DNA from: a virus
Length of the DNA: 29,390 nucleotides
Direction: 5' to 3' (one strand)
IMG/VR virus record: IMGVR_UViG_3300025079_000014
Span: 1 to 29,390 of that record
Shown here: in pieces, positions 2,967 through 27,909 of the stretch
Layout: each line of letters starts with the position of its first letter
Position numbering within the stretch: the stretch's first letter is position 1
Program-made: the position numbers and the translations under genes
Notes under the pieces: model-generated
The model's database searches: none
What the model saw: only the letters and a program-made list of their open reading frames with translations
What the model was told of the DNA's origin: nothing

Positions 2967-3261
2967 AGTATTATAACAATATTCTATGAATATCATTTTA
3001 TCATAGACAATACCTATAGTGTTTTATGTTTCTATATTTTTTATCTATACACCCAAAATGAAAATAGAGGTTTGTTGTTATAAGTGTATACCAGTCGCAA
3101 ATCTGCCCAAGTTGCTAAACTTCTATAGTCATATAGTTGGTTCAGCTAAATCAAATCTCCTTAGAAATTGCACTACTTAATCCTTTGTTACTTTCGTCAG
3201 CACCCAAGTAGTATTCAACCTAACGAGTATCTAATCTAAATTTAAAATAACATATTCTATA

Positions 3262-3281
3262 GGGGGGGTGCATATTAAACA
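3262..3281 (-). repeat. TTAAACA-family intergenic element (G-run variant)
   Basis: Seven G followed by TGCATATTAAACA on the plus strand. It matches the family core (ATATTAAACA preceded by a G or C run) but is the most diverged at the TYAT positions. It lies in the gap between the small-gene operon and the structural block. Confidence 0.6.
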
Positions 3282-3353
3282 TTGAACTGTTTCCAAATAT
3301 ATTTCTGGAATGCATAAATCAATTCTAACCAAAAAGAGTTTATAGTATTTGAA

Positions 3354-3370
3354 CCCCATCATATTAAACA
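3354..3370 (-). repeat. TTAAACA-family intergenic element (C-run variant)
   Basis: CCCCATCATATTAAACA on the plus strand, a full match to the family consensus. Same orientation relative to transcription as all other copies. Confidence 0.75.
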
Positions 3371-6768: not shown

Positions 6769-7197
6769 TACACTATAAATTTACTATTAATAATAGAACG
6801 TGCACGTGTATACAACAATTTTTTTACACTACCAAACATTTATACAGAAAAAAGTCGATTTTGCTCTGGTTTAATTATCTCAGACTTTTGATATACTAAC
6901 ACATAGAAATAAATAGAAGCTCTTAAAACGGCTAAAAACAGCCTTAAAACGTATGATAAAATAATTTACACTAATTAGTAAATTTTAACATAAAACATTT
7001 TTTTTATCCAAAAATTAGCTTTAAATTTGTGTTGGTGCCCTAGTCCGAAAATGTAAGAATATTCCTACAAGCCTATTTCCATACGAAAAATAATTGGATA
7101 ATCCTAACAAAAATATTTTTTTTTCTGTATTTTTTTGGTCGTATTATTGCCTTATGAAAGTCCAAAGGAATATCCAAATAAAAAGTGTTAAAGTTTC
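6769..7197. other. Gene-free region
   Basis: No coding frame supported on either strand. It contains the perfect 10-bp palindrome ACGTGCACGT (6798-6807), a GGCT/AGCC mini-hairpin (6930-6943) in CTTAAAACG direct repeats, and the 16-bp sequence at 6935-6950 shared in inverted orientation with 3476-3491. The rest is A/T-rich with long T-runs, compatible with an easily melted origin-like segment, but nothing proves it. Confidence 0.5.
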
Positions 7198-7220
7198 TTA
7201 TTTATATTCATTCTAAATAA
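7198..7220. promoter_or_regulatory. Fur-box-like palindrome, copy 2
   Basis: Exact 23-bp copy of 6746-6768, separated by only three bases from copy 3. Confidence 0.5.
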
Positions 7221-7223
7221 CAC

Positions 7224-7244
7224 TATTTAGATTCATTCTAAATA
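7224..7244. promoter_or_regulatory. Fur-box-like palindrome, copy 3 (perfect arms)
   Basis: TATTTAGA-TTCAT-TCTAAATA, a perfect 8+8 inverted repeat with a 5-bp centre. It is the best of the three copies and lies 10 bp from the start of the TTAAACA repeat array. Confidence 0.55.
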
Positions 7245-7253
7245 ATAGGTTGA

Positions 7254-7354
7254 CCCCCATTATATTAAACAACCCCCATTATATTAAACAGCCCCCATTA
7301 TATTAAACAAGAGAGGGGATTATGTTAAACATATCCCCCCCATTATATTAAACA
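7254..7354 (-). repeat. Array of five TTAAACA-family elements
   Basis: Copies at 7254-7271, 7273-7290 and 7292-7309 are identical (CCCCCATTATATTAAACA) and spaced 19 bp. Copy four (7315-7331) has GGGG in place of the C-run and ATGTTAAACA; copy five (7335-7354) has seven C. Copies four and five together form a hairpin, GGGGAT-T-ATG / CATATCCCC with loop TTAAA. The array follows the stop of the gene at 7365. Confidence 0.85.
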
Positions 7355-9287: not shown

Positions 9288-9319
9288 CAAACATAAGTAG
9301 CATAATTCGATTACACAAA
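9288..9319 (-). promoter_or_regulatory. Bacteroidota-type promoter
   Basis: On the minus strand TTTG (9316-9319) and TATGTTTG (9288-9295) are separated by exactly 20 bp, a full match to the Bacteroidota sigma-ABfr consensus. It drives the 9257 gene and those beyond it. The rest of the 9258-9553 gap holds only the repeat array. Confidence 0.85.
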
Positions 9320-9464: not shown

Positions 9465-9499
9465 AATACCCCCATTATATTAAACATAGTGGGGGTATT
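9465..9499. repeat. Perfect 10-bp inverted repeat around a TTAAACA element
   Basis: AATACCCCCA (9465-9474) and TGGGGGTATT (9490-9499) are exact reverse complements with a 15-base loop that carries ATATTAAACA. It is formed by a C-run copy followed by a G-run copy. No T-run follows on the minus strand, so on its own it is not a classical terminator. Confidence 0.8.
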
Positions 9500-9551
9500 A
9501 TATTAAACATCTTAGGGGTATCATATTAAACGACCCCCATCATGTTAAACA
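9469..9551 (-). repeat. Array of four TTAAACA-family elements
   Basis: Copies at 9469-9486 (CCCCC), 9491-9509 (GGGGGT), 9515-9531 (GGGGT) and 9534-9551 (CCCCC). Cores are ATTATATTAAACA, ATTATATTAAACA, ATCATATTAAAC and ATCATGTTAAACA. The run base alternates, so neighbours can pair: copies one and two by 10 bp, copies three and four by 5 bp. The array starts 3 bp after the terL stop codon. Confidence 0.85.
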
Positions 9552-9553
9552 TT

Positions 9554-10768
9554 CTATCTGATTACATATTTTCCTGAGTTGACTCCCTGTAGTAAATACA
9601 TAAGCGAGTAACGGATTGCATCAATATAGTGATTGAACTTATCTATTGGTCTTTCATTCTTCTCATGCCAGACATAGTTATTTATCTCTCTTATGATACC
9701 TTCAGACTCTCTATCAACTATTATCTGATAATCTTGCATTAGGGCAATCCCAGATAGGATTGACCCTTTCTTCTTTATGGTAGGTTTTATATTCAAACCC
9801 ATATTCTTTAACTCTGATATAAGTCTTGGCTCTGCTGAGTCACAGATAATTAAATCTGTGCCACACTCAGTCTTATTCCTGTATGCAATGTCTGAGGTAG
9901 ACAGGTTTGTCTTACCATAGATAGACTTAACATAAACACTCCTAGTGTCCTTATCAACTGCAACTTTTACTAAACTAGTAATATCTGTAGAGAATCCAAA
10001 ATCCTGCCCATAACACATAAGGTCGGTCTGAACAAAGTGTCCTACCTTCCAGTTAGTGATTATAGTACCCTCTGCTTTGTTTAACCATCCTCCTAGTATC
10101 TGATGCTCAAACTTAATCACATCTCTTCTCTTGAGGTCGTAGAGCTGTTCTAAGTAACTCTTAGATAGATTCTTTCTATTGTCTTCAAAGGTAGTGTGGA
10201 TATAAGTTACATCATTCTTAGAACCATTAGTGCCAGACTTAAAGTTAGGATACATAAAGAACCTTTGGTATATCCAATGCTCCTTAGTAGTTGGATTCAA
10301 TATAAGTACAACTCTGTTCTGCTTAGTGTTTGAACGTATAGAGAAGTCAATCTTACTGAAAGTGTCTTCATCTGTAAGCTCTTCTGCTTCATCCAATACA
10401 AACGTTGTAACACCACTAAGAGACTTCAGGGCAGCCGTTTGGTTACCTGATGATGTTCTGATACCTTTAAACATTATAGAGCTTCCTGTGGTTAGATTTA
10501 TGATTTCATCCTTTGTGATTCTGAAATCACTATCTACACCCATGAGTTCAATCTTCTCAATAAACTCTGGAATAATAGATGCTGCTGCTGAGGTTAGTGT
10601 AAAACGAGTAAACAGGACTTTGTGTCCTGCCTCGTATGTTAGGTTAAGTAAGAATACTGTTATACCGAATGACTTACCAGAACCACGACCACCTGTAACA
10701 ACAAAGTACCTAGATTTATCTGTAAATAAAGGTACGTACTTGTCGTTTAATTGTACTGAGTTCTTCAT
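9554..10768 (-). CDS. terL: Terminase large subunit
   Basis: 404 residues, a usual length for Terminase_3/PBSX-type motors that cut and pump DNA into proheads. The N-terminal ATPase has Walker A GGRGSGKS at residues 26-33, Walker B TTFVLDEAEE at 121-130 and a coupling motif LILNPTT at 155-161. The C-terminal RNase-H-like nuclease has Asp256 in YGQDFGFS, Asp310 in LIICDSAE and Asp383 in YIDAIRYS. The ATG overlaps the end of the small upstream gene by four bases (ATGA). It ends three bases before a repeat array. It is far from the portal and capsid genes, at the end of the replication block. Confidence 0.96.
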   Translation of the reverse strand: MKNSVQLNDKYVPLFTDKSRYFVVTGGRGSGKSFGITVFLLNLTYEAGHKVLFTRFTLTSAAASIIPEFIEKIELMGVDSDFRITKDEIINLTTGSSIMFKGIRTSSGNQTAALKSLSGVTTFVLDEAEELTDEDTFSKIDFSIRSNTKQNRVVLILNPTTKEHWIYQRFFMYPNFKSGTNGSKNDVTYIHTTFEDNRKNLSKSYLEQLYDLKRRDVIKFEHQILGGWLNKAEGTIITNWKVGHFVQTDLMCYGQDFGFSTDITSLVKVAVDKDTRSVYVKSIYGKTNLSTSDIAYRNKTECGTDLIICDSAEPRLISELKNMGLNIKPTIKKKGSILSGIALMQDYQIIVDRESEGIIREINNYVWHEKNERPIDKFNHYIDAIRYSLMYLLQGVNSGKYVIR

Positions 10769-11537: not shown

Positions 11538-12068
11538 TTATTTTAAAAATGGGTTGGATACTCTTCCTTCTATCTTAGCACCTTTTACGAGTTCTACATC
11601 TTTAGGAGCGACCTTAATAGAAACTAGCCTATCATAAGGTGTTAATCTATTGTCTATAAAGTCATTTAATGTATTTACATCCCAATTAAAAAGTGTATTG
11701 TTTATTTTAACTACAAGAGATTTTATATCTTCATGAACCTGATTAGTTGTATTCAACTGCTCTTTGGCTCTAATAATTTGTATTGGCTCACTGTATTCAG
11801 GTTTAATAAATAACCCATTGTCAAGAACTATCTCGTCATGAATCCTTACATCTTTGTCGTTTACTACTTTAAAAGAATTAAAGTGATAGTAAGCTGCATC
11901 GTGAGATATGTCTATTGATTTACCAATGCTATCCCAAGTATGATTGTATTTTCTAGCTATCTTGCAATACACTTTTCTAGCATAAGAAAACCTCCTCTTT
12001 CTACTTTTTGTAGCTATATCAAATCCATACTTACTATCTAGTTCTGCTTTTAGTTTTTCTAATGTCAT
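11538..12068 (-). CDS. DnaA domain-IV-like DNA-binding protein
   Basis: 176 residues. Residues about 22-68 (SRKRRFSYARKVYCKIARKY, then HTWDSIGKSIDISHDAAYYH) follow the layout of the DnaA C-terminal domain: a basic helix with Ala-Arg, a helix, IG, then the recognition helix where DnaA has DHTTV and this protein has SHDAAYYHF. Cellular DnaA ATPase domains are absent, so this is a stand-alone DNA binder with a C-terminal domain of unknown type. Such phage proteins may bind an origin or regulate replication; that is inference. Confidence 0.6.
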   Translation of the reverse strand: MTLEKLKAELDSKYGFDIATKSRKRRFSYARKVYCKIARKYNHTWDSIGKSIDISHDAAYYHFNSFKVVNDKDVRIHDEIVLDNGLFIKPEYSEPIQIIRAKEQLNTTNQVHEDIKSLVVKINNTLFNWDVNTLNDFIDNRLTPYDRLVSIKVAPKDVELVKGAKIEGRVSNPFLK

Positions 12069-15239: not shown

Positions 15240-15806
15240 TTAAATTTTATCGTAATCTCCGTTATAATAATCCTCTGCATCTTCTGAAAAGCTCTCTCTT
15301 ATAATATCTCTATATCTTTTTATAGAGTTATAAAGACTGCTTCTACCTATACCGGTCTCACTAGACAACTTATCTAATGACAAACCTGTTGTGAAATAAG
15401 CTATAAATACATTACGAGAGTAGAAATCCCAACTATTTACCTCTGTAAATATCTTACTTATTAATTTGTTAAACCCTTTCTCCTGTTCTACATCAATAAA
15501 CTCATCCTTTAAGTTTCCTAAAACATAATCAAGAGTCTCCTCCTGAGTATCTAATAACTCATTAGACACACACTTTCTTTTAACTCCATTAAGATATATG
15601 CTTCTTAAAGTCATATACATATAAAAGTCATTTACATCATCCTCACCATAAGAAATATCAACACCTTTGCTTAGGTAGTCATAAACTCTTATGTAAGCAT
15701 CTTGAACAACATCATCCACATAAGCTGGATTACATCCCATTCCCTTCACTAACCCCACCCAAGTCTTTTGCTTGGCTGCAAGTTTCCTTAATTGTTCTTC
15801 AATCAT
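15240..15806 (-). CDS. ECF-like RNA polymerase sigma factor
   Basis: 188 residues, the ECF sigma length. A region-2-like segment (AYVDDVVQDAYIRVYDYL, residues 28-45, then a helix ending YLNGVKRK) has the DDVVQDAYIRV phrase of sigma region 2. A C-terminal HTH, GLSLDKLSSETGIGRSSLYN at 141-160 followed by SIKRYRDIIR, matches region 4. It may redirect host RNA polymerase to phage promoters. It overlaps the RusA-like gene by 8 bp. No anti-sigma gene is seen. It is also possible that it acts as a middle/late transcription activator rather than a true sigma. Confidence 0.72.
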   Translation of the reverse strand: MIEEQLRKLAAKQKTWVGLVKGMGCNPAYVDDVVQDAYIRVYDYLSKGVDISYGEDDVNDFYMYMTLRSIYLNGVKRKCVSNELLDTQEETLDYVLGNLKDEFIDVEQEKGFNKLISKIFTEVNSWDFYSRNVFIAYFTTGLSLDKLSSETGIGRSSLYNSIKRYRDIIRESFSEDAEDYYNGDYDKI

Positions 15807-19362: not shown

Positions 19363-19394
19363 CAAATATAAGTATAATTACTCTTATGCACAAA
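19363..19394 (-). promoter_or_regulatory. Bacteroidota-type promoter
   Basis: On the minus strand TTTG (19391-19394) and TATATTTG (19363-19370) are separated by exactly 20 bp. A second TATATTTG (19391-19398) overlaps the -33 element. It drives the 19341 gene. The remainder of the 19342-19626 gap holds the two repeat elements and no gene. Confidence 0.85.
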
Positions 19395-19558: not shown

Positions 19559-19620
19559 CCCCATCATGTTAAACATCCTGTGTGTGGTATTTTAAGATAC
19601 CACCCCCATCATGTTAAACG
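19559..19620 (-). repeat. Two TTAAACA-family elements flanking a hairpin
   Basis: CCCCATCATGTTAAACA at 19559-19575 and CCCCCATCATGTTAAACG at 19603-19620. Between them GTGGTAT-TTTAAG-ATACCAC (19584-19603) forms a 7-bp hairpin. The pair lies just beyond the holin stop codon at 19627. No T-run follows the hairpin on the minus strand. Confidence 0.8.
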
Positions 19621-19626
19621 AACAAC

Positions 19627-20022
19627 TTAGTTTTTATTGATTGTAATATTCTTGGATATCTTCTCAGCACTTCTTCCAACTACATATCCACCGATACCTA
19701 ATTGTAATAGATTCCAAAATTCATTCTCTAAAGGTGGAATAGTAAAGCCAAACAAAGGTGCTATAAACTTTACATAAATAACTATAAAACCAAAAGCTAA
19801 CATTAGAATAGGTCTCCAGCTTCTTTGTAGCCAGTTACCTTTAGCTTCTGCAATGATTATATCAGTTTGCATTTTTTGTAACTCAAGTTCTTTTTCCTTT
19901 AATACTTGAATTATCTTGTTCTTAGCGTTTATACGCTCTTCATCATTAGTAAATAAGTTGTCTATTATACCACCTATTTCTTTTACTACATTACCACTTA
20001 AAAAGTCTAATATCTTCTTCAT
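19627..20022 (-). CDS. Holin, GTA/3TM type
   Basis: 131 residues from MKKILDFLSGNVVKEIGGII. ATG 20022 overlaps the endolysin stop as TAATG, so a TTG two codons upstream is rejected. The family pattern is a helical N-terminus (FTNDEERINAKNKIIQVLKE), then EAKGNWLQRSWRPILMLAFG FIVIYVKF region (the NWLQRSWRP motif), a first membrane helix at about 71-88 and a second around 103-118, closing with GRSAEK. Holins of this type form the membrane lesion that releases the endolysin. A third segment is less certain. Confidence 0.85.
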   Translation of the reverse strand: MKKILDFLSGNVVKEIGGIIDNLFTNDEERINAKNKIIQVLKEKELELQKMQTDIIIAEAKGNWLQRSWRPILMLAFGFIVIYVKFIAPLFGFTIPPLENEFWNLLQLGIGGYVVGRSAEKISKNITINKN

Positions 20023-26838: not shown

Positions 26839-27183
26839 TTATACAAATATGTATTCATAATCAGAGTTGTCCTGAACATAATCCGAAGTAGAAGCTAATG
26901 AAGTTCTAAACGTAACTATATCCCTGTAAACAGGTGAGGAATCTGATGAATTATAAATATTAACAGACAAAGTGCTATTGCTGTTTATCTTTGACTGAAA
27001 AGTAGAGTCAGTTATAGTCAAGTCCACATAAGCATTCTCAGCACCCACAACAATATTACCTGTTGCAACAGTGTGAACCTTCTTGGTTTCTTGATTTGTT
27101 ATCTTAGCCGCTAAAGAAGTGAAACTTCTCCCAGTAATATTAACCCTAATTACAGGTAAGCTATTTATATCTGCTATTGTCAT
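26839..27183 (-). CDS. Small structural-module protein (114 aa), Ig-like fold possible
   Basis: 114 residues from MTIADINSLPVIRVNITGRS. A longer frame starts at 27213, but the start at 27183 has the TATAATACT leader. The protein is Thr/Ser/Asn-rich with alternating strands and closes with DYVQDNSDYEYIFV, suggesting an Ig-like or head-decoration fold. It lies between the 184-residue protein and the portal. The next start comes 10 bp after its stop. Not recognised. Confidence 0.6.
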   Translation of the reverse strand: MTIADINSLPVIRVNITGRSFTSLAAKITNQETKKVHTVATGNIVVGAENAYVDLTITDSTFQSKINSNSTLSVNIYNSSDSSPVYRDIVTFRTSLASTSDYVQDNSDYEYIFV

Positions 27184-27223
27184 AGTATTATAACAACAAA
27201 CATTGCTTTTCATTTTATTTAAT

Positions 27224-27254
27224 AAAAAAGGGGCTTATGTTAAACATAGCCCCC
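27224..27254 (-). terminator. Terminator built from two TTAAACA-family elements
   Basis: Minus strand GGGGCTATG-TTTAA-CAT-A-AGCCCC followed by TTTTTT: a 9-bp stem with a bulged base. The loop carries the core of the repeat family. It lies 23 bp beyond the 184-residue gene stop. Confidence 0.85.
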
Positions 27255-27267
27255 TTAATATTAAACA
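27230..27267 (-). repeat. Two TTAAACA-family elements
   Basis: GGGGCTTATGTTAAACA at 27230-27246 and CCCCCTTAATATTAAACA at 27250-27267. Both match the family core, and together they give the terminator hairpin listed above. Confidence 0.75.
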
Positions 27268-27276
27268 TATTAGTTA

Positions 27277-27831
27277 TTACGGATTGATAACTGATGCATT
27301 TACATCAAAGTCAAGTCCAGCTCCTACTATTGCAGATGATACAAAGTAAGCAGGTTCTTTTTCTTTTCCTTCGAAAGATAAGTTATACCCATTAAGGTCT
27401 CCCATTGCACCGCCAGTAGCAGTAGATACAGATACTTCTACTCCATTTTGAAGTCCAGCCAATCTAAAGTTACCATTGTAATCTTCGATTAGGATGTGTG
27501 GTCTTCCGTAAGAAAGCAATTTAAGAGCTTTCTGAGTAGCAGCATCTTGTTTCTTTAATACGATAGCTCCAGTTTGAGTCCAAAAAGAAGTTCCGTTATC
27601 TCTTGAGTTTTCGTTAGTCTCCTCAAAAGTATTGTTGTCACCTCTAAGCTCAAACTTGTAAACAACTAAATCAGTTGTTAAGCCTGTAATTTGCTCATCA
27701 GTGTCTAGGTTTGATGCTGTTGTTGCATCAGCGTAAAGTCCATCAACGTAATTTCCAATGTAGATGTTTCTTAAGCCACCAACACTTTCCTTACACGCTT
27801 CTGTTCTTCCTGTTGTAATATCACAAGACAT
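27277..27831 (-). CDS. Major tail or structural protein (184 aa)
   Basis: 184 residues (MSCDITTGRTEACKESVGGL onward). The beta-rich sequence includes NIYIGNYVDGLYA, VVYKFELRGDNNTFEETNEN, RDNGTSFWTQTGAIVLKKQD and a closing VSVSTATGGAMGDLNGYNLS. Proteins like this occur downstream of the capsid gene in Bacteroidota phages and are known virion proteins; a tail-tube or decoration role is possible. It is flanked by terminators on both sides (27224 and 27856), as for a highly expressed unit. Confidence 0.65.
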   Translation of the reverse strand: MSCDITTGRTEACKESVGGLRNIYIGNYVDGLYADATTASNLDTDEQITGLTTDLVVYKFELRGDNNTFEETNENSRDNGTSFWTQTGAIVLKKQDAATQKALKLLSYGRPHILIEDYNGNFRLAGLQNGVEVSVSTATGGAMGDLNGYNLSFEGKEKEPAYFVSSAIVGAGLDFDVNASVINP

Positions 27832-27855: not shown

Positions 27856-27886
27856 AAAAAAAGGGATGGGATAAGACACCCATCCC
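27856..27886 (-). terminator. Terminator after the major capsid gene
   Basis: Minus strand GGGATGGG-TGTCTTAT-CCCATCCC followed by seven T. It lies 23 bp beyond the capsid stop. A TTAGATTAAACAG sequence next to it (27893-27906) resembles the repeat core. Confidence 0.9.
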
Positions 27887-27909
27887 CTTTATATTAGATT
27901 AAACAGTTA

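Follow-up and report, generated by a model that had tools for sequence, protein, structure and literature searches.

A flavobacterial phage contig and its intergenic repeat

The window, that is, the whole stretch of DNA analysed here, is a 29,390-base linear virus record from IMG/VR. It is an uncultivated flavobacterial phage contig with almost every gene on the minus strand. Matches to PHROGs and Pfam comprise terminase, portal and tail proteins, an exonuclease, an ERF protein, an M15 peptidase and a holin, and the nearest terminase matches belong to the flavobacterial isolates P12024L and P12024S (51% identity). These two isolates, homologous in their terminase, lack the repeat element described below. 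A weak sigma-70 region 2-like protein is encoded at 15240-15806, with conserved counterparts throughout the clade and, as gp35, in P12024; it was rejected as a reader of the repeat core, since P12024 has the protein but no motif.

On the plus strand the repeat reads (C or G run)-N-ATYATRTTAAACA, and as transcribed (the sense form) [CT]GTTTAA[CT]AT followed by N3-GGGG or N4-CCCC, with the short form TGTTTAAYAT-N3-GGGG. All 15 core-plus-run copies in the window are intergenic and all 15 lie on the plus strand, hence antisense to the genes. Across the 36 compared records 242 copies are in sense and three in antisense orientation. The string SSSSNNNATRTTAAACR has 13 matches in the window, all on the plus strand, against 0.00 in shuffled sequences, and TTAAACA has 38 against 15.8. 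Among the runs of 110 distinct arrays, a perfect TGTTTAATAT stands 1-5 nt before the run in 366 of 537, and the run base in sense is G in about 413 copies and C in about 69. The C-run copies have a gap of four nucleotides rather than three, the extra base before the run (usually A) pairing with the U after the G-run. A T5 run lies behind 14 of 83 C-run and 14 of 408 G-run copies.

The repeat is specific to one clade of marine flavobacterial phages and occurs between genes only. A scan of viral contigs with CCCCATYATRTTAAACA returned 112 stretches, many of them multi-copy; some single matches sit in GC-rich contigs and look like chance. Examined as whole records, the multi-copy contigs share the terminase and many protein families with the window and thus form one phage clade. 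An element of host chromosomes was rejected, because the scan of genome contigs gave 63 stretches with one pattern match each, scattered over unrelated phyla and therefore read as chance. A literature search for the repeat sequence found no relevant paper among those listed, and an Rfam scan of the window gave no curated family for it, its one sub-threshold match lying elsewhere in the window. Many of the compared loci came from scans that required the motif, whereas the samples for the terminase, gene 27277-27831 and the holin were drawn without this requirement. The relatives include many fragments and some near-duplicate sequences, and their gene calls are mechanical open reading frames.

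The features of the window are as follows, all on the minus strand.

3262-3370, minus: pair of copies with a spacing of 92 bp (G, then C, in sense), within the leader of the late structural operon
7254-7354, minus: array with five copies of core plus run, in sense order G C G G G; the stop of a predicted 52-aa ORF lies 10 nt upstream
7315-7338, minus: hairpin GGGGAUAUGUUUAACAUAAUCCCC, its loop holding the core, followed by the weak U-tract UCUCUUGUUU, in the slot of the relatives' intrinsic terminator
9288-9318, minus: predicted flavobacterial-type promoter TTG-N20-TATGTTTG, 151 nt beyond the post-terminase array
9465-9499, minus: second hairpin of the post-terminase array, AAUACCCCCA-CUAUGUUUAAUAUAA-UGGGGGUAUU, with a stem of 10 bp and without a U-tract
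9469-9551, minus: array with four copies, G C C G in sense; the stop codon of the terminase gene (9554-10768) lies 2 nt upstream
9515-9538, minus: first hairpin of the post-terminase array, GGGGGU-CGUUUAAUAUGAU-ACCCC, lacking a U-tract and weak on its own
19363-19393, minus: predicted flavobacterial-type promoter TTG-N20-TATATTTG, 165 nt beyond the 19559 array
19559-19620, minus: pair of copies downstream of the holin-like gene 19627-20022, each with a G-run in sense, without mutual pairing
27224-27256, minus: predicted intrinsic terminator AAGGGGGCUAUGUUUAACAUAAGCCCC-UUUUUU, whose loop contains the core, lying between genes 27277-27831 and 26839-27213
27250-27267, minus: core copy preceding the 5' arm of the 27230 terminator
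27859-27890, minus: plain predicted intrinsic terminator GGGATGGG/CCCATCCC, T7GTTTAAC behind, no core in the loop

Arrays, operon ends and promoters

Arrays hold up to seven copies with a usual spacing of 19, 23 or 25 bp, and at operon ends they often stand 2-10 nt behind a stop codon and 200-600 nt before the next start. The post-terminase array is the most widely shared, being found in about 40 of 70 terminase relatives (fetched by protein, window included). It is missing from relatives with terminases at or below about 66% identity and also from some at 69-76%. The site behind the holin gene is sporadic, with core plus run in 3 of 58 distinct sequences, and in the window a separate GTGGTAT/ATACCAC inverted repeat lies between its two copies.

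Promoters were searched with the pattern TTG-N18-23-TAnnTTTG, in which TAnnTTTG is the flavobacterial -7 consensus (PMC9723704). Matches fall between array and next gene for 27 of 58 arrays, typically about 150-290 nt beyond the array, and between stop codon and array for two. The core itself was rejected as a host -7 box, since TAnnTTTG ends in a G that the core does not have, and since the promoter matches were located past the arrays. In the relatives, arrays often begin with a terminator whose U-run abuts the next core.

Several other elements neighbour the arrays. Inverted repeats of the type TTATTTAGAATGAATCTAAATAG, in two or three copies at intervals of about 22-25 bp, occupy 7190-7253 of the window and likewise follow the arrays of relatives; behind them come a conserved TGTATACACGTGCACGTTC-like block and then a promoter. 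They look like an operator cluster, with a possible resemblance to a Fur box. At 3000-3370 on the minus strand, about 290 nt of noncoding DNA precede the first late structural gene. This leader is well conserved in relatives (CTCGTTAGGTTGAATACTACTTGGG...GGATTAAGTAGTGCAATTTC), has no Rfam match and, in the window copy, folds barely better than shuffled sequences (z -1.25). Variant arrays of TTTAACATG units, with arms that are not homopolymers, occur in L233 and its record G036 (L323-L324), some of the arms being complementary around the core (GCUC/GAGC, CCUC/GAGG). The more distant relatives L270 and L271 have another kind of tandem array, GGTAATATGGTAATATGG, in this post-terminase position, and in L255, L259 and L260 the simple repeat CGCGCGCACGCACGCAC lies immediately behind the post-terminase array.

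Direct repeats at 19-25 bp, close to other repeats and AT-rich DNA and in a long noncoding region, might be replication iterons or another phage DNA-maintenance site, with the long post-terminase region as the origin. A 176-aa protein with a weak match to the C-terminal domain of DnaA (domain IV; E 2.7e-4) is encoded nearby, at 11538-12068. This explanation is nevertheless very unlikely, given up to seven separate repeat sites per genome, several of them inside the late operon and at terminators, and given that the DnaA-C-like family, widespread in the clade and P12024, is present without arrays. Its occurrence in array-free relatives also led us to reject this protein as the binder of the repeat.

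Hairpins around the core and their covariation

The initial annotation had proposed that neighbouring G-run and C-run copies pair into hairpins with the core in the loop, and all four of its examples do fold. The 7315-7338 hairpin, GGGGAU[U]AUG-UUAAA-CAUAUCCCC, reaches -10.4 kcal/mol on both strands (z -2.8 on plus, -2.4 on minus), and its bulged base was confirmed to sit at the same place as that of the 27230 stem. Behind the stem is only UCUCUUGUUU, whereas relatives carry a T-run in the same slot; in several of them, comparing by position, the slot holds a plain terminator at the array start, for example GGGGGUGCGGAUAAAACGUAUCCCC-U5 or GGGGUGCAGUCAUGCACCUC-U7. The stem at 9465-9499, described as a perfect 10 bp, is indeed uninterrupted over 10 bp or more (-19.0 on plus and -17.3 on minus, z -3.9 and -2.9), and the 5-bp stem at 9515-9538 is present, weak on plus (z -1.0) and somewhat better on minus (-9.4, z -1.8). 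These two stems are followed by GGUGUGU and UAAGAUG, respectively, neither of them a U-run, and are therefore not classed as intrinsic terminators. The 27230-27253 hairpin has a 10-bp stem with one bulge (-15.6 kcal/mol, z -3.1). Its U-run (27224-27229) lies on the minus strand, which is the coding strand, so that the earlier reading of this site as a terminator fits its sequence for minus-strand transcripts only. Here a GC-rich stem-loop, an immediate U-run and compensatory stem change together make up the sequence features of an intrinsic terminator.

Covariation in homologous phages had been set in advance as the test of the hairpins; it was seen in the stems at 27230 and 9465, so that the refuting outcome of no covariation did not occur, although there is little variation in the runs. 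To resample the 27230 site independently of the motif, sequences were collected through the neighbouring gene 27277-27831, giving 43 distinct downstream sequences. In 17 of the 43 the core occupies the loop, the stem changes are compensatory and a U-run stands behind; all 24 folded hairpins consist of a stem and then a T-run, about 5-8 long in homologues. Immediately inside the run the stem pair is C-G, U-G, U-A, G-U or A-U, and the 5' arms include GGGGCUA, GGGGUUC, GGGGUC and GGGUGUC, each with its own complement. For the 9465-9499 stem, 94% of cells over six relatives are paired and three pairs have changed on both sides; the covariation score is 0.160 against at most 0.049 for slid partners, on six sequences, which are few. 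Among the hairpins of relatives in the order G-run, core, C-run, the pair beside the run is complementary in 22 of 27 distinct readable cases (U-A in nine, C-G in six, U-G in four and A-U in three). Stem variation falls beside the runs, which are nearly invariant except at one swapped site (L444).

The 27230 hairpin and its homologues resemble intrinsic (Rho-independent) terminators in having a GC stem-loop behind a stop codon, a U-run and compensatory changes, and differ from them in the clade-specific motif of 9-10 nt in the loop; moreover, two of the four window hairpins have no U-run. The core does not appear to be needed for termination, as one homologue has a flipped core centre (TGTTAAACA), another is one base short (TGTTTACA) and plain terminators occupy this site in more distant relatives.

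Pairing proved to be a minority use of the repeat. The claim that the run base is not random did not hold: neighbouring copies carry opposite runs in 26 of 42 cases in the window's subclade (21.2 expected, P 0.12) and in 16 of 58 in other subclades (16.7 expected, P 0.80), so that run alternation was rejected as evidence for hairpins. That opposite-run pairs form stems is borne out for the G-then-C order but not for C-then-G pairs, 38 of 51 of which have a T-T mismatch beside the run; C-then-G hairpins were rejected as a general class, the 9465 stem being an exception. Complementarity between the flanks of 17 cores was not significant in the window alone (P 0.13). It was elevated in the window's subclade (11.18 against 9.29 ± 0.40 permuted, 0 of 300) and not significant in other subclades (9.19 against 8.81 ± 0.27). 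Arrays with both runs have median z values of -2.3 in sense and -1.4 in antisense, and G-only arrays, at -1.1 and 0.06, fold little better than shuffled sequences. On the flank permutations in other subclades and the G-only folds, pairing was rejected as a general trait of the repeat. With alternation at chance level, C-then-G mismatches and unstructured G-only arrays, the hairpin, though real, is confined to a minority of copies; most copies, having the same run and being unable to pair, probably do something else.

Part of this evidence would suit a spreading intergenic repeat, REP-like or made by tandem slippage, in which run inversion creates hairpins and no function is selected. Chance-level alternation, the mismatch of most C-then-G pairs and the patchy occurrence among relatives with 69-76% identical terminases are as expected from such spread. 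We consider it improbable in view of the compensatory stem changes, the strict orientation and the more conserved core columns. REP and BIME elements are intergenic repeats behind stop codons that can fold, REP palindromes occurring in both orientations. The present repeat is likewise intergenic, behind stop codons and able to fold, but it keeps one orientation (242 against 3) and most of its copies do not fold.

Candidate roles at transcription-unit ends

The proposal of a module working both as DNA site and as RNA hairpin is better put in terms of a single oriented repeat that has been incorporated into terminator hairpins in some of its copies; the majority have G-runs and are unpaired, and the repeat may serve as a DNA site. 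Over 20 aligned post-terminase regions, core and G-run columns are conserved at 0.94 against 0.79 for the rest, the former figure being somewhat inflated because the core columns were chosen by core matching. Copies directly behind terminator U-runs would be mostly absent from the terminated RNA, and this placement favours a role at the DNA level or in read-through transcripts.

An RNA-level variant would have the cores in read-through or 3' UTR RNA serve as single-stranded UGUUUAAYAU for an RNA-binding or antitermination protein. The core is nearly palindromic yet strictly in sense, and G-only arrays are unstructured and hence accessible; the copies behind terminator U-runs, however, would be mostly untranscribed and no candidate protein was found, which makes this variant distinctly doubtful.

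We favour, at a probability of about 0.55, a reading in which this phage clade uses the repeat to mark where transcription units end, as operon-end stop signals with the tandem copies as a directional backstop. On the minus strand, a G-run copy followed by a C-run copy would give the transcript a GC stem with UGUUUAAYA at its tip, and with a U-run behind, as at 27230 and the same site in relatives, an intrinsic terminator. The 7315 hairpin may stand in for the plain terminator of relatives, and the two stems at 9465 and 9515, without U-runs, might act by slowing RNA polymerase or by capping the 3' end; any stopping of transcription by these three hairpins is inferred. The other tandem copies, mostly G-run, lie just behind a stop codon or a terminator U-run, with the next promoter further on. 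These unpaired copies would most likely serve as the backstop, keeping transcription out of the next control region.

A possible model for the action of the repeat is offered by the stoperators of the cluster A mycobacteriophage L5, which are many short asymmetric intergenic sites with an orientation tied to transcription (PMC9283540). The present repeat is also short, asymmetric, intergenic, fixed in orientation and present in many copies per genome, but differs in its tandem arrays, its G or C run, its place beside terminators, the host phylum and the absence of a repressor-like gene among the window proteins scanned. A phage or host protein bound to the asymmetric TGTTTAAYAT-N3-GGGG duplex could block elongating RNA polymerase from one side, the hairpins being secondary. 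This alternative to the operon-end reading draws on the likeness to L5 in asymmetry, number and orientation, on the copies right behind terminator U-runs, which the terminated RNA would not contain, and on the conserved core and G-run columns. Against it, no repressor-like gene appeared among the scanned window proteins (no such Pfam match among 30, and none named by a PHROGs scan of 20), the DnaA-C-like protein also occurs in array-free relatives, G- and C-runs are both tolerated and the spacing varies (19, 23, 25 bp); we regard it as possible, though rather unlikely. More speculative still is the specific proposal that tandem TGTTTAAYAT-N3-GGGG forms a one-directional protein-bound stop for RNA polymerase behind intrinsic terminators, which would be a stoperator-like insulator in Bacteroidota phages without the mycobacteriophage repressor.

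The embedding of a repeat in terminators has a parallel in the neisserial DNA uptake sequences (DUS), which double as terminators, with inverted DUS copies forming the stem (PMC2397512). Both are short genome-specific repeats inside terminator stem-loops at gene ends. In the phage repeat, however, the copies are direct, the attached G/C runs are the arms and the repeat is the loop, and no role in uptake is implied.

In this phage clade one short oriented repeat is used in two settings, within the loops of terminators and, in tandem arrays, at the borders of operons. Arrays with an effect on RNA polymerase would constitute a modular transcription boundary for Bacteroidota phages; arrays without one would be a useful warning that run inversions in G-rich repeats yield convincing hairpins by default.
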